Below are positions 7,114 to 60,781 of a DNA stretch of 64,000 nt, piece after piece. The first letter of the stretch is position 1, and each line of letters starts with the position of its first letter. Made by a program: the position numbers and the translations under genes. Origin of the DNA: Deltaproteobacteria bacterium (GTDB taxonomy: Bacteria > Myxococcota > JADLHZ01). Where the stretch lies: positions 62,001 to 126,000 of the forward strand of contig JADLHZ010000108.1 of assembly GCA_020848545.1 (NCBI GenBank), in the 5' to 3' direction. The notes beneath the pieces are model-generated. The model was not told the origin of the DNA. It was given only the letters and a program-made list of their open reading frames with translations, and did not search any database.

Positions 7114-8454
7114 TTGAATCACGCAGAGGGCGTGCTAGTCGAGCGCGGGTTGAAGACCTTCGCCCGTTACCTCTCGCTGCTCGCGCTCGCGGTGCTCGTC
7201 TTCACGGCTTGTAACGCCGTGGTCGTGCTCGTGCCGCGTGAGCTGCTCGTCCGGCGCGTGCTCGCAGGGTACGAGGAAGGTGCGCTCGGCACCGAAGACT
7301 ATCCGGGCCGCAGGGTGTGGATCGGGATCGATCAATTCTCGGACTGCGTCATGCTCCAGACCATGATCGACCGGCAGCCGGCGTGGCTCGCCACGGCGAT
7401 CAGCGCGCGCTACCTGCGCTTCGACCCAGGCGGCCCAGGGACATGCCTTCGCCTGCGCGACGAGGTTGCCGGGCAAGGCGCGCCCGTCGAGCACGTGCAC
7501 TACCACCGCTACTGGTTCGGCAATCGCACCGTCACCGCGCTGCTCGTCGCGACGCTCGGCGTCGGCGGCGGTCGCATCGCGCTCACGATCGCCGGCTACG
7601 CGTCGGTGCTCTTGCTCCTCGCCGTGGCGTTTCGCCGTTCACGCCGCCTCGGCCTATGGACCTTGCCCATCGCGCTCTTTGCGCTCGTCTTTGGCGGCTT
7701 GCCACACCTCGGGCCGCTCTACTCGCACGCGCCGCAGTGGATCGTGTGCTGGCTCGCGGCGGCGCTGCTGCTCGTCGTAAAGGACATGGACCCGCATCGC
7801 CTCCGCCTGCGCGCGGCGCTCCTTGGCGCCGTCTTCGCGTACTTCGATGTGCTCCTGTCGACGCCGCTCTGCCCGCTCCTCGTCACCGCCGTCGTCTACT
7901 TGCGCTGCTTCGACGCGAGCGGTGACGCACGCGCATCGGCGAAGACGGCCGGTGCTGCGCTGGTCGGGGCCGGCGCCGGAATCGTCGCGACGGTGCTGCT
8001 GAAGCCGTTGCTCTCCGGCGCATACTTCGGTTTCGGCGGGGTGCTCGGTGACTTTTTTTCGCAGCTCTTCGTGCGCGTCGGCGCCAGCGAGCGGCGCTGG
8101 TTCTTCGCGCCGATCGCGGCGGTCTGGCGCACGCTCGACTACGCCACCTTCGCCGACGGCGCGTTCAAGTGGCCGATCGTCGGCTTCGGCCTCGCCGGCT
8201 ACGGCATCGCGATCGTGCTGTGGTGGCGCCGCCGCACGCAGGGCCATGCGCTGCTCCTCGGCCTCGCCTGCACCGTCTTGCTCGCCGCGTGGTACCTCGG
8301 CATGGCGAACCACACCGAGAACCACCCGGATCTCATGAGCCGGCACGTGTTCCTGCCGCTCGCGCTCGGGTGGACCGCGGTGCTCGTGCAAGTGGCGGCG
8401 ATGCACCGCAAGCCGCTTCGAGCGCGCGCCGACGGTCCCGCGGCGCCTTTCTGA
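7114..8454 (+). CDS. Polytopic membrane protein of unknown function
   Basis: 446 residues with about nine or ten hydrophobic helices and a first segment near residues 18-40. A hydrophilic loop of about 90 residues follows the first helix, a topology seen in GT-C-type glycosyltransferases and other lipid-linked enzymes, but no catalytic motif was recognised. Near the end MANHTENHPDLMSRHVF is a polar loop between helices. The start is uncertain: TTG at 7114, GTG at 7132 or TTG at 7150. It is the first of three tandem plus-strand genes with the acyltransferase-like and desaturase genes, suggesting a common role in lipid or glycolipid synthesis. Confidence 0.6.
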   Translation: MNHAEGVLVERGLKTFARYLSLLALAVLVFTACNAVVVLVPRELLVRRVLAGYEEGALGTEDYPGRRVWIGIDQFSDCVMLQTMIDRQPAWLATAISARYLRFDPGGPGTCLRLRDEVAGQGAPVEHVHYHRYWFGNRTVTALLVATLGVGGGRIALTIAGYASVLLLLAVAFRRSRRLGLWTLPIALFALVFGGLPHLGPLYSHAPQWIVCWLAAALLLVVKDMDPHRLRLRAALLGAVFAYFDVLLSTPLCPLLVTAVVYLRCFDASGDARASAKTAGAALVGAGAGIVATVLLKPLLSGAYFGFGGVLGDFFSQLFVRVGASERRWFFAPIAAVWRTLDYATFADGAFKWPIVGFGLAGYGIAIVLWWRRRTQGHALLLGLACTVLLAAWYLGMANHTENHPDLMSRHVFLPLALGWTAVLVQVAAMHRKPLRARADGPAAPF

Positions 8455-8514: not shown

Positions 8515-9765
8515 GTGCGTGCGCTCGGCACATGGGAGACGTTTTGCGCGACAATGCACGACGCGCTCGGCGGTGGCACGGTCATCGCCTGCGCCGCCGA
8601 GCTCTTCGCGCCCATCTCTGACGAGGCCGTCAGCGGGGCGGCGGCGACCTTGTGCCGCACCCATCCCGTCCTCACCTTCAGCCCGAGCGGCGGCCGCTTC
8701 GTCCCGCACTGGCGCGCCATCGCCGTCGAGAAGGTGGCGATCCCGGAGCCCAGCGAGTTTCTGGACGCGCTGACCAATCGCTCGTTCCCGGCTGGTGCTC
8801 CGCCGGTCGCGATCGCAACATGCGGCCGAATGGTCGGCGTCGCGTTTCACCACGCGATCGTGGACGGCCTCAGCGCGTTTCGCTTCCTCCGCGACCTCGT
8901 CGAGCTCGCCTACGCGCCACGCGAGCTGCAGAGCCCCGGCGCGCTCGGCCCGTCGGTCGAGGCCAGAATCGGCGCCCGACACGGCGCGACGAGCCTGTGG
9001 ACGAACCTGCGGGAAAACGTCGCCCACGAGTGGCGATCGCGCGCCGCCACGCCGCACAAGGCCCGCTTTGAACAGCATGTGCCGTTCGCTCGTCGCACGA
9101 CGCGGCACCTCGCATTCGCGTTGCCGCAACACGAGAGCGAAGCGGTCATCGCGCATGGCAAGAGCAGCGGCGCCGGGCTGCACGCGTGGCTCGCGGCCGC
9201 CGAGCTCCTCGCGAACCGCGATCAGTTTTTCGCCCGCCGCGCCGACACGTTCTTGCGCCACCACACAGCGATCGACCTGCGCGAGGCCGCCGGCATGTCG
9301 CCACGCGAGCTCGCGTGCGCGATCGCCGTCGTCGACACGGCGCACGCCGTGGCCGGAAAAACGATGCGCGCGCTCGCGGCAGAGATCGCCGGAGCGCTGC
9401 CGATCGCCCGCGCGCGCCGCGGCCGCATGGCGACGAAGTTCCCCCGCTGGCTCGCGCACGCCGGCGTTCGCCTCACCCTGCGCTCGAGCGAGGCCGATCG
9501 ACGCTTCCTTTACCAAAGCTCGCTGACGAACTTGGGGCGCCTGGCCGATCATCCGGCCGACGCACACATCGCGCGCTACTTCGCCAACTCCGGCCGCATC
9601 GTCGGCGACTTTCCCTTCTTGGCGCAGGTCTTCTCGCACCGCGGGATCGTCCAAGGGGCCTTCTCCTACTGCGAGCCGCTGATGAGCCACACGGCGGCCA
9701 CCGAACACTTTGAGCGCTTCCGCGCACACGCACTGCAGAGCGCCGCCCTGCGCCGAGCGGCCTAG
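8515..9765 (+). CDS. Condensation-domain/acyltransferase-like protein (HHxxxDG)
   Basis: 416 residues containing HHAIVDG at residues 112-118, the active-site signature of condensation domains, PapA-type and wax-ester-synthase-type acyltransferases. The protein is stand-alone: no carrier or adenylation domain is attached, and it is close to the length of one such domain. No membrane helix or signal peptide is evident. A GAGGT element seven bases upstream of the GTG supports the start. It sits 60 bp after the membrane protein gene and 14 bp before the desaturase gene. Acylation of a lipid or long-chain base is a reasonable inference, not shown. Confidence 0.7.
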   Translation: MRALGTWETFCATMHDALGGGTVIACAAELFAPISDEAVSGAAATLCRTHPVLTFSPSGGRFVPHWRAIAVEKVAIPEPSEFLDALTNRSFPAGAPPVAIATCGRMVGVAFHHAIVDGLSAFRFLRDLVELAYAPRELQSPGALGPSVEARIGARHGATSLWTNLRENVAHEWRSRAATPHKARFEQHVPFARRTTRHLAFALPQHESEAVIAHGKSSGAGLHAWLAAAELLANRDQFFARRADTFLRHHTAIDLREAAGMSPRELACAIAVVDTAHAVAGKTMRALAAEIAGALPIARARRGRMATKFPRWLAHAGVRLTLRSSEADRRFLYQSSLTNLGRLADHPADAHIARYFANSGRIVGDFPFLAQVFSHRGIVQGAFSYCEPLMSHTAATEHFERFRAHALQSAALRRAA

Positions 9766-9779
9766 CTAGAGGATCACCG

Positions 9780-10811
9780 ATGCCCTTCATCACGACGACC
9801 GAACCGGAACCGCACTTCGCCCGCAGAAAGCGCTTGTTGAAAGCGCACCCCGAGATCCGCACGCTCTTCGGCTACGACCCGTGGCCGAACCTGTGGATCG
9901 TCCTCTGCATCGTCGTGCAGTTCGGCATCGCCGCGCTCCTGCAATTCGCCGTCATGCCCGGCTGGGCGCGCGCGATCGCCGTGATCGTCGCCGCGTACGC
10001 GGTCGGCGCCTTCATCGCGCACTACGGCGGCGTCATCTTCCACGAGGCGTCGCACAACTTGGTGGCGCCGACCGAGACCTTGAACCGCCTGGCCGCGATC
10101 GTCGCGAACTTCGTCAACGTCGTGCCGTGCGCGATGACCTTTCGCCGCCACCACGGGCCGCACCACAAGCACATCGGCTACCGCGCGGTCGACAACGATC
10201 TGCCGGGAGATCTCGAGCGCATCCACTTCGGGCATTCGCCGCTGCGCAAGCTCTTCTGGCTGTGCACCTACACGTTCTGGGCCGTGTTCTTCCGCGGCTT
10301 CTGGCGCAAGCCGGATCGTTGGGAGGTCTTCGGCGTCGCCGTCCAGCTCACGGTCAACGCGCTCGCGATCTATTACATCGGCTGGGTCGGCTTCGCGTAC
10401 CTCGCGATCTCGACGTGGCTCTCGTCGGGACCGCACCCGGTCGCTGGTCACTTCATCCACGAGCACTACATCTGGCACGCCGGCCAAGAGACCTATTCTT
10501 ACTACGGCATCTTGAACCGTGTGACGGCGAACCTCGGCTACCACAACGAGCACCACGACTTCGTCAGCGTGCCGGGCTCACGCTTGCCCGAGCTGCACGC
10601 GATGCTGAAGGACGAATACGCGCCGCTCTACGCCGACAATTCGTGGGCGAAGGTGATGTGGCGCTTCGTGTTCGATCCGTCGATCACGCACGACTCGCGC
10701 TTTTGTCGAGGGCTCACGCCGTCGGAAGGAGCTTCACGATCACGCCCGGATGCGGCGCGTAGCTCACCCGCAGCGCCGCTCGCTCCGGCGGGTCAACGAG
10801 CTCCAGCCTGA
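9780..10811 (+). CDS. Sphingolipid delta-4-desaturase-like (DEGS1-like) membrane desaturase
   Basis: 343 residues. Three histidine boxes, HEASH (88-92), HHGPHH (124-129) and HNEHH (255-259), identify a membrane di-iron desaturase/hydroxylase. Beyond these, the N-terminal RRKRLLKAHPEIRTLF and the ETYSYYGILN and LGYHNEHHDF segments line up with human dihydroceramide desaturase DEGS1 as I remember it, including its late SW-K-V region. This places it in the sphingolipid desaturase family rather than among ordinary acyl-lipid desaturases. Reaction on a dihydroceramide or a related long-chain base is inferred. An AGAGGA site precedes the ATG. The last ~35 residues are Ser/Pro/Ala-rich and overlap the convergent P450 gene by 98 bp. 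Confidence 0.88.
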   Translation: MPFITTTEPEPHFARRKRLLKAHPEIRTLFGYDPWPNLWIVLCIVVQFGIAALLQFAVMPGWARAIAVIVAAYAVGAFIAHYGGVIFHEASHNLVAPTETLNRLAAIVANFVNVVPCAMTFRRHHGPHHKHIGYRAVDNDLPGDLERIHFGHSPLRKLFWLCTYTFWAVFFRGFWRKPDRWEVFGVAVQLTVNALAIYYIGWVGFAYLAISTWLSSGPHPVAGHFIHEHYIWHAGQETYSYYGILNRVTANLGYHNEHHDFVSVPGSRLPELHAMLKDEYAPLYADNSWAKVMWRFVFDPSITHDSRFCRGLTPSEGASRSRPDAARSSPAAPLAPAGQRAPA

Positions 10812-11964
10812 AGCGCTTCAACATCGACCCGAGCACGAGCTGCATCTCGGTCAACGCAAACGACGCGCCGATGCACGCGCGCTGGCCGAGCGCAAAAGGC
10901 AAATAGCTCCCCTTCTTCGGCGGCGGCTTGCCTTCGACGCGGAGGAAGCGCGTGTGATCGAAGCGGTCGGGATCATGGAAGTGCGCCTCGAGCCGGTGCG
11001 TCGCGTACGGGCAGTAGCCGATGGAATCACCAGGCACGAGCGCGATGTCGTCGATCTGAAACGGCGCCGTCACCTCGCGCCCGAAGGTCGGCAGCGACGG
11101 ATAGAGCCGCAGCGACTCGTCGCACACGGCGCGCAGCACGCTGTCATCGGCGCCGCGCACGAGCTCCTGCAACGCCGGCCGCTCCGCGACGAGCATCCAC
11201 ATCCAGCCGAGCGCCGACGCCGTCGTCTCGTAGCCGGCGGAGAACATGGTCAACAGGTGGTTCACCATCCGCTCGCGCGAAAACGCCGGATCCTTTTGCA
11301 TCATCGCGTTCATGTCGAAGGGCTCCGTGCTGCCTCTTCGCTCGTCCATCAGCTCGGCGATGATCCCGCGCAGCGTCGCGAGCTCGCGCACGAAGCGCCG
11401 CGCGAAGATCTTGGGATAGCGCTTCGGCAAGTCCACCGGCAACGCGCCGCGGACGGTGATCGACCCCAAGCAGTGCGCGAGCGCCGTCACGATGCGCTGC
11501 ATGTGCTCGTCGACGTTTCGGTAGAACATGCGCTCGCCGATGACCCCGAGCGTGATCGCGAGGCTGTCTTGGTAGAGATCGCGCTCCTCGCCGACCTTCA
11601 ATGTGTCCATGTACGCGTCGATGCGCTTCTGCATGATCGGAAGAAACGCGGCGTTCGCCGCCGGCTTGAACGCGGGCTGCAAGCGGCTGCGATCTTCCTC
11701 CCACACGGCGCCTTCGGTCGTAATCAGCCCGTCGCCCAAGATGTCGGTCAGCAGCTGGTAGTCGAAGCTCTTCTTCAGCTTGTCGTTGTGCTGCACGAGC
11801 GTCGTCGCGATCGCTTCGTGATCCAAGAAGAGCCAGATGCGCCGGCTCGGGTGCGGCAGGATCAAGCGCGGCCCGAATTCGCGCCCGAACTCCAGGAACG
11901 TCTTCGCGCGATCGGTGACGAAGCCGTGCGCGAGCCGCGGCCACTCGTAGAACGGGATCTTCAG
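10714..11964 (-). CDS. Cytochrome P450
   Basis: Heme monooxygenase, soluble by appearance. The I-helix AGYETT (243-248), the K-helix ExxR (ESLR, 283-286) and the heme loop FALGQRACIG with proximal Cys364 are all present, and 416 residues is a normal bacterial length. The reading frame has no ATG, GTG or TTG near the expected start. The best candidate is a CTG that overlaps the purC stop as CTGA, implying translational re-initiation. It is the third gene of a DUF6178-purC-P450 chain, yet faces the desaturase locus, so its substrate could be a lipid; this is inference. Confidence 0.85.
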   Translation of the reverse strand: MKIPFYEWPRLAHGFVTDRAKTFLEFGREFGPRLILPHPSRRIWLFLDHEAIATTLVQHNDKLKKSFDYQLLTDILGDGLITTEGAVWEEDRSRLQPAFKPAANAAFLPIMQKRIDAYMDTLKVGEERDLYQDSLAITLGVIGERMFYRNVDEHMQRIVTALAHCLGSITVRGALPVDLPKRYPKIFARRFVRELATLRGIIAELMDERRGSTEPFDMNAMMQKDPAFSRERMVNHLLTMFSAGYETTASALGWMWMLVAERPALQELVRGADDSVLRAVCDESLRLYPSLPTFGREVTAPFQIDDIALVPGDSIGYCPYATHRLEAHFHDPDRFDHTRFLRVEGKPPPKKGSYLPFALGQRACIGASFALTEMQLVLGSMLKRFRLELVDPPERAALRVSYAPHPGVIVKLLPTA

Positions 11965-56947: not shown

Positions 56948-56994
56948 ATGAATACAATTTATATGTCGATTAACTTCGTCGCTATTGTATTCAT
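56948..56994. promoter_or_regulatory. Divergent operator: 11-bp perfect inverted repeat
   Basis: Arms ATGAATACAAT (56948-56958) and ATTGTATTCAT (56984-56994) are exact reverse complements separated by 25 bp. The spacer is AT-rich against a GC-rich background, as expected for promoters. It probably binds the LysR dimer pair. Confidence 0.75.
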
Positions 56995-57020
56995 GGGCGC
57001 ACACCTGCATCCTCGCCCCC

Positions 57021-59363
57021 ATGCCCTACCTTCTCACGCCAGGCCCGCTGACGACCGCCGCCGCGACCAAAGACGCCATGCAAGTGGACTACGGATCGCG
57101 CGACCACACCTTCATCGGCTTCACCAAGCGCGTGCGTGAGCGCTTGCTCTGGCTGTGCGCGGGTGAACGGACGCACACCGCGGTCATGCTGCAAGGCTCG
57201 GGCACCTACGCCGTCGAGGCCGCGTTCGGAACGCTCGTGCCGAAGGACGGCAAGGTGGCCGTGCTCGTCAACGGCGCCTACGGCAAGCGCATGGTCGAGA
57301 TCGTCAAGGTGCTCGGCCGCGCGCACGTGACCCAGGAGACCGCTGAGGACGTGCCGGTCGATCCCGCTGCGTTGGATCGTCTGCTCGCGGACGACCAAGC
57401 GATCACCGACGTCGCCGTCGTCTACACCGAGACGACGACCGGCATTCGGAATCCTTTGGAGGCGATCGCGGCGGTGACGGCGCGCCACGGCCGCCGCTTG
57501 ATCGTCGACGCGATGAGCTGCTTCGGCGCGCTGCCGATCGATCTGCGCACGCTGCCGATCGACGCGCTGTGTGCGTCGTCGAACAAGTGCCTAGAAGGCG
57601 TGCCCGGCATCGGCTTCGTCATCGTGCGGACCGAGTGGCTGAACGCTTGCGCCGGCCGCTCGCACTCTTTGGCGTTGGACCTCCACGCGCAGTCGCAGGG
57701 CTTCGACAAGAACGGCCAATGGCGCTTCACGCCGCCGACGCATGTGCTCGCGGCGTTCGACAAGGCGCTCGATCTGCACGCCGTCGAGGGCGGCGTCGAA
57801 GGGCGCGGCGCCAGGTATCTGGCGAACCAACGCGTGCTCGTCGACGGCATGCGCGCGATGGGTTTTCGGACGCTGCTGCCGGATCATTTGATGTCGCCGA
57901 CGATCGTCACCTTTCACATGCCGCAGGATCCCAAGTTCGTCTTTCAGACGTTCTACGATCGCCTGCGCGAGAAGGGCTTCGTCATTTATCCCGGGAAGCT
58001 GACGGCGGCGGACAGCTTTCGGATCGGGTGCATTGGCGATCTGACGCCGGAGATCATGCGGGCGGCGCTCGGTGCGATCGATGAGACGGTGAAGGAGATG
58101 GGCGCGAAGATTTCCGGCGACGGCGACGGAAACGGCAACGGCGACGTGACCGTGAATGGACGCAGGTACGCCTGGCCGAAGAAGCCGACGGTGGTGATCT
58201 GCCTCGACGGCTGCGCGCCGGAGTACTTCGAGAAAGCCGTCGCCGCCGGCAAGATGCCGAACCTGGCGAAGATGGTCGAGCGCGGCACGAACGCGTCGGC
58301 GCGCTGCGTGATCCCGTCGTTCACGAATCCGAACAACATGTCGATCGTCACCGGCGCGCCGCCGAGCGTACACGGCATCAGCGGCAACTTCTTCATCGAT
58401 CCGCGCACCGGCGAGGAAGTCATGATGAACGATCCGAAGTTCTTGCGCGCGCCGACGCTCCTGGCGGCGTTCTCGGCGGCCGGCGCGAAGGTCGTTGCGA
58501 TCACGGCCAAAGACAAGCTGCGCAAGATGCTCGGGGAAGGGCTGAAGGGCGTCGCGTTCTCGGCGGAGAAGGCCGACAAGTGCACGCTCGCGGAGCATGG
58601 CATCACCGACGTGGTCGCGAAGGTGGGCATGCCCGTGCCGGACGTCTACAGCGCGGAGCTCAGCGAATTCGTGTTGAAAGCCGGCGTCGTCCTCTTGAAG
58701 AGCGACAAGCCCGACATCCTCTATCTCTCGACCACCGACTACGTGCAGCACAAGCACGCGCCGGGCACCGACGAAGCGAACGCGTTCTACGCGATGATCG
58801 ACAAGTACCTCGGCGAGCTCGATGCGCTCGGCGCCGTCATCGCGATCACCGCTGATCACGGAATGAACGCGAAGGCCGACGCTGCCGGCAAGCCGCGCGT
58901 GCTCTACTTGGGCGACTGGCTCGACGAGAAGCTCGGCAAGGACAAGGCGCGCGTCATCCTGCCGATCACCGATCCCTACGTCGTCCATCACGGCGCTCTC
59001 GGCAGCTTCGCGTGGATCCACTGGGGCCCGAGCGTGACCGCCGAGCAACGGCAAGCGCTGACGCAAGAGCTCGCGAAGGATCCGAACATGGAAGTCGTCC
59101 TCGATCGCACCGCCGCCGCGCGCCGCTTCGAGCTGCCGGCCGATCGCGTGGGCGACGTGTGCGTCATCACCAAGGCGAACGCCGTCGTCGGCACCGAAGC
59201 TGCGCGCCACGATCTGACGGGGCTCGACGCGCCGCTGCGCTCGCACGGTGGGCTCGGTGAAGAGCGCGTGCCGCTCGTCTTGAACGTGGCGCGCAAGACC
59301 GCGGGCCGCGATCTCAGAAACTTCGACGCGTTCGACCTCGCGCTCAATGGAGACAAGCAATGA
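57021..59363 (+). CDS. PhnW-PhnA fusion: 2-AEP aminotransferase / phosphonoacetate hydrolase
   Basis: 780 residues in two catalytic parts. Residues 1-360 match 2-aminoethylphosphonate-pyruvate transaminase: LTPGPLT at the N-terminus and the PLP lysine in SSNKCLEGVPG (Lys189). Residues 388-780 match phosphonoacetate hydrolase of the alkaline phosphatase superfamily: CLDG metal Asp396, SFTNPNN nucleophile Thr435, STTDYVQHKH, TADHG and a late SHGG. They are joined by GDGDGNGNGDVTVNG (366-380), encoded by hexamers. The first and last steps of the PhnW-PhnY-PhnA route are thus on one chain; PhnY is supplied by the next, 4-nt-overlapping gene. Confidence 0.9.
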   Translation: MPYLLTPGPLTTAAATKDAMQVDYGSRDHTFIGFTKRVRERLLWLCAGERTHTAVMLQGSGTYAVEAAFGTLVPKDGKVAVLVNGAYGKRMVEIVKVLGRAHVTQETAEDVPVDPAALDRLLADDQAITDVAVVYTETTTGIRNPLEAIAAVTARHGRRLIVDAMSCFGALPIDLRTLPIDALCASSNKCLEGVPGIGFVIVRTEWLNACAGRSHSLALDLHAQSQGFDKNGQWRFTPPTHVLAAFDKALDLHAVEGGVEGRGARYLANQRVLVDGMRAMGFRTLLPDHLMSPTIVTFHMPQDPKFVFQTFYDRLREKGFVIYPGKLTAADSFRIGCIGDLTPEIMRAALGAIDETVKEMGAKISGDGDGNGNGDVTVNGRRYAWPKKPTVVICLDGCAPEYFEKAVAAGKMPNLAKMVERGTNASARCVIPSFTNPNNMSIVTGAPPSVHGISGNFFIDPRTGEEVMMNDPKFLRAPTLLAAFSAAGAKVVAITAKDKLRKMLGEGLKGVAFSAEKADKCTLAEHGITDVVAKVGMPVPDVYSAELSEFVLKAGVVLLKSDKPDILYLSTTDYVQHKHAPGTDEANAFYAMIDKYLGELDALGAVIAITADHGMNAKADAAGKPRVLYLGDWLDEKLGKDKARVILPITDPYVVHHGALGSFAWIHWGPSVTAEQRQALTQELAKDPNMEVVLDRTAAARRFELPADRVGDVCVITKANAVVGTEAARHDLTGLDAPLRSHGGLGEERVPLVLNVARKTAGRDLRNFDAFDLALNGDKQ
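58116..58160. repeat. Translated hexamer array at the fusion junction
   Basis: GGCGAC, GGCGAC, GGAAAC, GGCAAC, GGCGAC, then GTGACC and GTGAAT. The units resemble those in the window's intergenic hexamer tracts. They encode the Gly/Asp/Asn linker between the transaminase and hydrolase domains. Confidence 0.8.
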
Positions 59364-60781
59364 AGACGGAAGCCATGCGCATCCTCGGCGAGAAGGTCTC
59401 GCGCGAGCGCACCTACGAAGTGAAGAACCCCTACTCCGGTGCCGTCGTGGCCAAGGTCGCGATGGCGAGCGTCGCCGACATCGATCACGCGATCGAAGGC
59501 GCTGCGCGGGCGAAGCTCACGCTCACCCGCTTCGAGCGCGCGAAGATCTTGGAGCGCACCGCGCAGATCCTGGAAGATCGCAAGCAGACCGTCGCCGACG
59601 TCATCACCAGCGAGAGCGGCCTCTGCAAGAAGGACACGCTCTACGAGGTCGGGCGCGCGCAGGACGTCTTGAACCTGGCCGCGCGCCTCTTGAACCAAGA
59701 CGACGGCGAAGCGTTCGCCTGCGATCTCACGCCGCACGGCAAGAAGCGCCGCATCTTCACCCTGCGCGAGCCGCTCGCCGGAGTGATCACGGCGATCACG
59801 CCGTTCAACCATCCGCTGAACCAAGTGGCGCACAAGGTGGCGCCCTCGATCGCGACGAACAACCGCATGATCCTGAAGCCGAGCGAAAAGACACCGCTGT
59901 CCGCGTTTTTGCTCGCCGACGCTTTGTACGAAGCCGGCCTGCCGCCCGAGATGCTGTCGATCGTCAGCGGCGATCCGAAGGAGATCGGCGAGCGGCTGAT
60001 CACGCACCCGAAGGTGGATCTCGTCACCTTCACTGGCGGCGTCGCGATCGGCAAGTGGATCGCCGAGCGCGCGGGCTACAAGCGCCTGGTGCTCGAGCTC
60101 GGCGGCAACGATCCCTTGATCGTCATGGACGACGCCGACCTCGACGAGGCGGTGGCGCTCGCGGTGAACGGCTCGTACAAGAACTCGGGGCAACGCTGCA
60201 CGGCCGTCAAGCGCATGCTCGTGCACGAGAAGATCGCCGACGCGTTCGTCGCCGGCCTCGTCGAGAAGACGAAGGCGCTGAAGTACGGCGACCCCAGCGA
60301 TCCCGCGACCGACATGGGCACCGTCATCGACGAAGCGGCGGCGAAGATCTGCGAAGAGCGCGTGAACGACGCGATCGCGCGCGGAGGCAAGCTGCTCTAC
60401 GGCAACGTCCGCAAAGGCGCGCTCTACTCGCCGACCGTCGTCGATCACGTCAAAGCCGACTGGACGCTCGTGAAGGAGGAGACCTTCGGGCCGGTGTCGC
60501 CGATCATCCGCTTCAAGAACATCGACGAGGCGATCGCGCTGTCGAACTCGACGGCCTACGGCTTGTCGAGCGGCGTCTGCACGAACCGCTTGGACGACGT
60601 GATGCGCTTCGTCCGCGAGCTGCAAGTCGGCACCGTCAACGTGCGCGAAGTGCCGGGCTACCGCACCGAGATGTCGCCGTTCGGCGGCATCAAGGACTCC
60701 GGCCTCGGCTACAAGGAAGGCGTGAAGGAGGCGATGAAGAGCTTCACCAACTTGAAGACCTTCTCATTGCCTTGGATGTGA
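59360..60781 (+). CDS. phnY: Phosphonoacetaldehyde dehydrogenase
   Basis: 473 residues, aldehyde dehydrogenase family. Cofactor loop VTFTGGVAIG (about 222-231), catalytic Glu246 in LELGGNDP and nucleophile Cys280 in SGQRCTAVKR. Context decides the substrate: coupled by 4-nt overlap to the PhnW-PhnA fusion, it would oxidise phosphonoacetaldehyde to phosphonoacetate, with NAD(P)+. Its stop directly abuts that of the convergent transporter gene. Confidence 0.9.
   Translation: MKTEAMRILGEKVSRERTYEVKNPYSGAVVAKVAMASVADIDHAIEGAARAKLTLTRFERAKILERTAQILEDRKQTVADVITSESGLCKKDTLYEVGRAQDVLNLAARLLNQDDGEAFACDLTPHGKKRRIFTLREPLAGVITAITPFNHPLNQVAHKVAPSIATNNRMILKPSEKTPLSAFLLADALYEAGLPPEMLSIVSGDPKEIGERLITHPKVDLVTFTGGVAIGKWIAERAGYKRLVLELGGNDPLIVMDDADLDEAVALAVNGSYKNSGQRCTAVKRMLVHEKIADAFVAGLVEKTKALKYGDPSDPATDMGTVIDEAAAKICEERVNDAIARGGKLLYGNVRKGALYSPTVVDHVKADWTLVKEETFGPVSPIIRFKNIDEAIALSNSTAYGLSSGVCTNRLDDVMRFVRELQVGTVNVREVPGYRTEMSPFGGIKDSGLGYKEGVKEAMKSFTNLKTFSLPWM

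Follow-up and report, generated by a model that had tools for sequence, protein, structure and literature searches.

In animals, dihydroceramide and ceramide differ by a delta-4 double bond, which is typical of sphingosine and is made by enzymes of the DES/DEGS family. A bacterial gene whose product resembles human DEGS1, located at positions 9780–10811 of the window (the whole 64,000-nucleotide stretch of DNA that was analyzed), raises the question of whether it is a true sphingolipid delta-4 desaturase (DES/DEGS) homolog and, if so, which lipid of its host it modifies. The source genome (G000; 7.99 Mb in 163 contigs, 100% complete) is a member of the Myxococcota; G118, another genome of this phylum, has its SPT gene at coordinates identical to those in the genome of the Hyalangium versicolor locus. 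In the following, C numbers denote contigs of this genome, L numbers denote loci, and the remaining G numbers denote other genomes.

The desaturase gene and its neighbors

The features of the locus are listed below, with the evidence for each given in brackets.

7114–8454, + strand: multi-spanning membrane protein, upstream of the desaturase and in the same direction (coding-like composition)
8515–9765, + strand: condensation/PapA/WS-DGAT-type acyltransferase with the motif HHAIVDG (PapA_C E=2.3e-5, WS/DGAT E=6e-4, both below cut-off)
9768–9773, + strand: Shine-Dalgarno-like AGAGGA, 6 bases before the ATG (read from the sequence)
9780–10811, + strand: DES/DEGS-family membrane desaturase gene, 343 aa (Pfam, tree, AlphaFold2 model, fold matches)
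9795–9884, + strand: Lipid_DES (PF08557) N-terminal region, residues 6–35 (Pfam)
10041–10055, + strand: histidine box 1, HEASH (HxxxH), residues 88–92 (both His invariant, 23 aligned members)
10152–10166, + strand: histidine box 2, HGPHH (HxxHH), residues 125–129 (His invariant, 23 aligned members)
10461–10466, + strand: EH of GHFIHEHY, residues 228–229 (invariant, 23 aligned members)
10542–10556, + strand: histidine box 3, HNEHH (HxxHH), residues 255–259 (His invariant, 23 aligned members)
10714–11960, − strand: convergent cytochrome P450, start approximate (PF00067, 176 bits)

The open reading frame starts with ATG, and its codon-position GC content (0.61/0.47/0.87) follows the pattern of a coding gene. 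Pfam analysis of the product revealed two matches well beyond chance: Lipid_DES, at 46.6 bits with a cut-off of 23 (E=2.3e-12), and FA_desaturase (PF00487), at 69.1 bits on residues 67–282 (E=6.4e-19). In the NCBIfam scan the product was named by no model. The preliminary description of this DNA had claimed that the similarity to DEGS1 extends beyond the histidine boxes, and this was borne out: all of the quoted motifs were found (ARRKRLLKAHPEIRTL, GHFIHEHY, ETYSYYG and GYHNEHHDF), and a 307-aa alignment of the two proteins shows 35.5% identity (165 bits; E=5e-51, from a search of a small set). DEGS1 (PF08557 plus PF00487) also shares with the bacterial protein the three boxes and the overall length. 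They differ in the context of box 1 (VIFHEASHN in the window desaturase, AIHEIAHN in DEGS1), and the bacterial gene lies in a putative operon with an acyltransferase and a P450.

All eight box histidines are invariant in the alignment of 23 family members, and the EH pair at residues 228–229 could possibly supply an extra iron ligand, by analogy with the enzyme class. A confident AlphaFold2 model based on these aligned members (pLDDT 88.4, pTM 0.88) has AlkB and human stearoyl-CoA desaturase among its best, albeit weak, matches to solved structures, so that the modelled fold is that of the membrane diiron desaturases; a sequence search of solved structures retrieved no relative. The C-terminal ~30 residues are unconserved and overlap the convergent P450 gene. 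Judged by these features, 9780–10811 is a genuine gene and a member of the DES/DEGS family.

The stop codon of the upstream gene and the start codon of the desaturase are separated by 14 bases, which suggests that the two form one operon and that the acyltransferase is probably co-transcribed with the desaturase. The structure model of the acyltransferase (pLDDT 41) was unusable, and the membrane protein at 7114–8454 had no match in Pfam or NCBIfam.

Two further loci within the window were recorded. At 56985–60781, a 2-aminoethylphosphonate transaminase fused to a phosphonoacetate hydrolase is followed by a phosphonoacetaldehyde dehydrogenase, with an adjoining MFS transporter, and this represents a 2-aminoethylphosphonate breakdown cluster with a PhnW-PhnA fusion. 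An HpnA-like protein of the epimerase family (265 bits, cut-off 368), encoded at 1126–2112, is a candidate second ceramide-type reductase.

The DES family in bacteria

A scan of genome contigs identified 573 bacterial genome stretches encoding DES relatives. Those retained originate from the Bacteroidota, Myxococcota, Bdellovibrionota, Pseudomonadota, Ignavibacteriota, Gemmatimonadota and others, and a DES-family gene is present in 38 of the 195 genomes of the phylum Myxococcota. A viral scan for eukaryote-type desaturase relatives yielded none. Lipid_DES was passed by all nine other bacterial relatives scanned with Pfam (24.8–66 bits), and a fused protein encoded at L175 fails it. Several bacterial relatives are 46–50% identical to human DEGS1 over their full length, and the window desaturase scores lowest against DEGS1 among all relatives in the set. 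On these counts the family is widespread across bacteria and not essentially eukaryotic, which corrects, as far as the family is concerned, the earlier remark that delta-4 unsaturation is regarded as mainly eukaryotic. Our searches of the open literature retrieved no paper on a bacterial dihydroceramide desaturase, which is weak evidence of absence.

Phylogenetic analysis placed the window desaturase, its paralogue from the same genome, DEGS1 and bacterial relatives in a single clade of 27 rows (support 100/99). The sequence used for DEGS1, the sole eukaryotic member of the tree, is supported by its Lipid_DES score (74.3 bits). The window desaturase belongs to a subclade of sequences from Myxococcota, Flavobacteriales, Aureispira and the locus L015 (94/71; 99/95 without the window desaturase), which is sister to an 18-row clade containing DEGS1 (100/98). 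Its branch (1.46) makes it one of the most divergent members of the family. The placement was unchanged after removal of the two longest branches, and without the window protein the subclade of the paralogue kept an SH-aLRT value of 99. DEGS1 itself nests, weakly (89/50), beside sequences of Myxococcota and Bacteriovoracaceae. Five other desaturases of the source genome fell far outside the DES clade, on branches of 7–10 changes per site. The phylogeny therefore upheld the identification of the protein as a DES homolog, lying apart from the acyl-lipid desaturases.

The source genome contains 13 FA_desaturase matches, the window desaturase included, two of which (the window gene and one on C151) are members of the DES family. 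The locus of the C151 paralogue (L122:8123–14432) encodes a protein of 738 aa in which a Glyco_transf_21 (GT21) domain of the ceramide-glucosyltransferase type (127 bits) is fused to a DES domain, and the latter includes a Lipid_DES region as well. The GT21 family includes ceramide glucosyltransferase; against HpnI this part scores 192 bits, well under the cut-off of 310, which makes it something other than a plain HpnI. The paralogue is preceded by a gene for a condensation-type acyltransferase fused to a P450 and followed by a P450 gene, and the L015 locus comprises a P450, a glycosyltransferase, a condensation-type acyltransferase, the desaturase and a P450. The HHxxxDG motif is invariant in the aligned acyltransferases of the window, C151 and L015. 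The P450s flanking the three desaturases are just 25–31% alike, which indicates a recurring combination of gene types and not one cluster found three times.

Fusions of another kind were observed at L174:7665–9425, L175:7542–9239 and L187:6975–8672, where a DES-family desaturase stands behind a ferritin/AurF/COQ7-like domain of ~250 aa. Two 836-aa frames (L172 and L173) were rejected as fusions, since no match was obtained for their N-terminal portions, which are probably artefacts of an over-extended frame.

The genomic context of other family members links them to sphingolipid genes. A canonical serine palmitoyltransferase (SPT) gene lies within 8–9 kb at 5 of 80 desaturase loci; if genes were placed at random, with 1.3 SPT genes assumed for a genome of 4.0 Mb, ~0.34 such loci would be expected. 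Two of these five loci are closely related and we therefore count four lineages, with p about 4e-4. Relatives located near SPT, CerR-like and/or CerS-like genes were found at L012, L018, L024, L028 and L063. Of 34 genomes of several phyla that carry a desaturase of this family, 29 have canonical SPT; within the Myxococcota it is present in 29 of 38 genomes with a desaturase versus 62 of 157 without one (Fisher p=5e-5, uncorrected for kinship). An oxoamine synthase beside the desaturase at L013 proved to be BioF-like and was left out of the count. At L080 the desaturase adjoins a ketosynthase and an acyl-AMP ligase-oxoamine synthase fusion. In the case of L028 (Cytophagaceae; L028:1353–15984), the region encodes a PEP mutase, a phosphonopyruvate-decarboxylase-type TPP enzyme, the DES protein, an SPT, an epimerase and a GNAT protein, and the desaturase gene and a gene for a CDP-alcohol phosphotransferase are 3 bases apart; by its gene content, this cluster resembles a pathway for phosphono-sphingolipids that includes a desaturase. 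The SPT/CerR/CerS-linked proteins (for example those of L028, L063 and, from Bacteriovorax, L018) belong to the same family as the window desaturase (~37–43% identity). Their neighbors include a canonical SPT, whereas the window gene is linked to a P450 and an acyltransferase, in a genome with an oxoamine synthase fused to a polyketide synthase (PKS).

Possible supply of a sphingoid backbone

No canonical SPT was detected in the source genome (no match above 398 bits; such a gene occurs in 91 of 195 genomes across the phylum). A search for oxoamine synthases with PF00155 and TIGR01825 left two candidates, on C147 and C65. The C147 protein was rejected as an SPT since its scores, 336 bits against KBL and 192 against SPT, mark it as KBL-like. 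C65 (L129:1957–12050) encodes a polyketide synthase of 1827 aa with the domain order KS-ACP-KR-DH-oxoamine synthase, in which the C-terminal domain is SPT-like. The motifs of the PKS part (KS Cys/His, ACP Ser, KR and DH) are intact, and there is no ER domain. Further members of the operon are genes for an ACP, a fatty acyl-AMP ligase and a protein of the epimerase family, and a divergently oriented gene encodes a GNAT acyltransferase. The latter, single-copy in the genome, is ceramide-synthase-like and matches the GNAT protein encoded beside SPT at L028 (29%, E=2e-37).

In a tree, the oxoamine-synthase domain grouped with SPTs and not with KBL or BioF, weakly (80/80). It scores below every NCBIfam SPT cut-off (NF047600, 321 versus 640; NF047599, 286 versus 500) and somewhat higher on the bioF model (341 versus 321); with an SPT profile it reached 332 bits, E. 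coli KBL 346 and SPTs 640–717. Given these scores, the domain is a putative SPT. Relatives of it occur in ~48 of the 195 genomes of the phylum (54–65% identity), mostly in frames of 1800–2500 aa, and the neighbors of the C65 PKS-oxoamine synthase recur at L203. The spt-like gene envisaged in the preliminary description is borne out in part: a canonical SPT is missing, and the genome has instead an SPT-like domain at the end of a PKS, within a ceramide-type operon.

Comparable routes are known from other bacteria. In Pseudomonas fluorescens MYb115, which makes sphingolipids, PfSgaAB produces sphinganine by means of a PKS and a separate PLP oxoamine synthase (PMC12134224). The source of the sphingoid base would be of the same kind on C65, with the difference that the two genes of MYb115 correspond to one protein, accompanied by genes for the ACP, acyl-AMP ligase, epimerase and GNAT protein. 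The ceramide operon of Rhodobacteria is arranged aasR-cerR-acpR-spt, with cerS separate (PMC9386255, PMC11324152), and in Caulobacter and Rhodobacteria cerS has its own operon (PMC11324152). The SPT operon of E. coli BL21 (FAAL-epimerase-ACP-SPT) matches the C65 operon in composition. These operons share with C65 the grouping of an acyl-AMP ligase, an epimerase-family reductase, an ACP and an oxoamine synthase, as well as a GNAT acyltransferase in another operon; they differ from it in that C65 has the PKS-oxoamine synthase fusion in place of SPT, and the epimerase match is weak (E=2e-10).

Other Myxococcota encode a cyclopropane-synthase-type methyltransferase adjoining the PKS-oxoamine synthase (L203:5165–6019 and L204:14016–14870), which perhaps methylates the sphingoid base.

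Most genomes in which the subclade of the window desaturase occurs lack canonical SPT. A PKS-type oxoamine synthase takes its place in four of them (G000, G126, G171 and G201); G129 (98% complete) and G213, of the same subclade, have neither a canonical SPT nor a clear PKS-oxoamine synthase, and neither SPT type was found in G169 (85% complete). The last three genomes indicate that the link between desaturase and SPT is not strict.

Probable function of the desaturase

The reading that we favor, and to which we assign about an even chance, is that the protein desaturates the long-chain base of a lipid of the ceramide or glycosylceramide kind, probably at delta-4 and in trans, both substrate and position being predicted. 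The observations behind it are membership in the family, the intact metal-binding boxes, the modelled fold, the phylogeny with DEGS1, the association of bacterial relatives with SPT, the GT21-fused paralogue, the P450 and acyltransferase neighbors, and the ceramide-type operon elsewhere in the genome. In the proposed pathway, the acyl-AMP ligase of the C65 operon would load the ACP, the PKS would extend the chain, the oxoamine-synthase domain would condense it with serine, the epimerase-family enzyme would reduce the product and the GNAT enzyme would N-acylate it. The desaturase, as an oxygen-dependent membrane diiron enzyme of the DES/DEGS type, would then carry out O2-dependent desaturation of the N-acylated or glycosylated sphingoid lipid, with later tailoring by the GT21, P450 and acyltransferase enzymes. 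The absence of a backbone gene next to the desaturase counts against this reading, as do the divergence of the protein, the lack of canonical SPT, the low SPT scores of the C65 domain and the subclade genomes G129 and G213. Of the delta-4 interpretation proposed earlier, the homology stands and the functional reading is supported in part, the SPT of the host being reduced to the PKS-fused SPT-like domain.

A PKS with KR and DH domains and no ER also weighs against the delta-4 assignment, because the C65 protein, with its active-site motifs intact, could itself make 4-ene sphingoid bases: provided that KR and DH act on the final chain, serine would be condensed with a trans-2-enoyl thioester to yield a 3-keto-4-ene base, and a delta-4 double bond would be possible without a desaturase. 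In that event the desaturases would modify a different part of the molecule, hydroxylate its C4 or have some other lipid as substrate. This makes C4 hydroxylation of a sphingoid backbone (which DEGS2 can perform), or desaturation at another position, a serious alternative, though we consider it less likely. The prevalence of the subclade in genomes without canonical SPT, including the four with the PKS-type enzyme, agrees with it. In the membrane diiron desaturase class, a single step separates hydroxylation from desaturation; no sequence feature separating hydroxylase from desaturase was found in this analysis.

It is more doubtful that the substrate is a non-sphingoid lipid and that the desaturase, together with P450s and condensation-type acyltransferases, tailors the product of a lipid-type secondary-metabolite cluster. 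The combination of HHxxxDG acyltransferase, desaturase and P450 common to the three subclade loci would fit such a role, as would the presence of the gene in G129 and G213; against it stand the grouping of the window desaturase with DEGS1 and the SPT-linked bacterial relatives, and the fusion of the paralogue to a GT21 domain, ceramide glucosyltransferase being a member of GT21. PF00487, which the protein shares with the 12 other matches in the genome, would suit a common fatty acid desaturase acting on acyl-lipids or acyl-CoA and mistaken for DES. This is very improbable and largely refuted by the trees: Lipid_DES is above its cut-off and the five other desaturases lie far outside the clade.

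Taken beyond the sphingoid desaturation that we favor, the data allow a broader picture, which we put forward tentatively: that the organism makes unsaturated glycosphingolipid-like lipids from a PKS-derived base, tailored by two DES enzymes (one of them glucosyltransferase-fused), and that the eukaryotic delta-4 desaturase is nested in a family of bacterial enzymes with members in Myxococcota and Bdellovibrionota. The desaturase family itself is known; what is unusual here is its setting, with a backbone route through a PKS-fused oxoamine synthase and a glucosyltransferase-desaturase fusion. Of interest to specialists are the abundance of the uncharacterized bacterial branch and the position of DEGS1 within it. 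With a DES family so widespread in bacteria, the eukaryotic delta-4 desaturase may have been exchanged with them, the placement of DEGS1 beside Myxococcota and Bacteriovoracaceae being weak (89/50). Moreover, if the bacterial DES proteins, sometimes clustered with SPT and ceramide genes, act as delta-4 desaturases, many bacteria could make sphingosine-type lipids.
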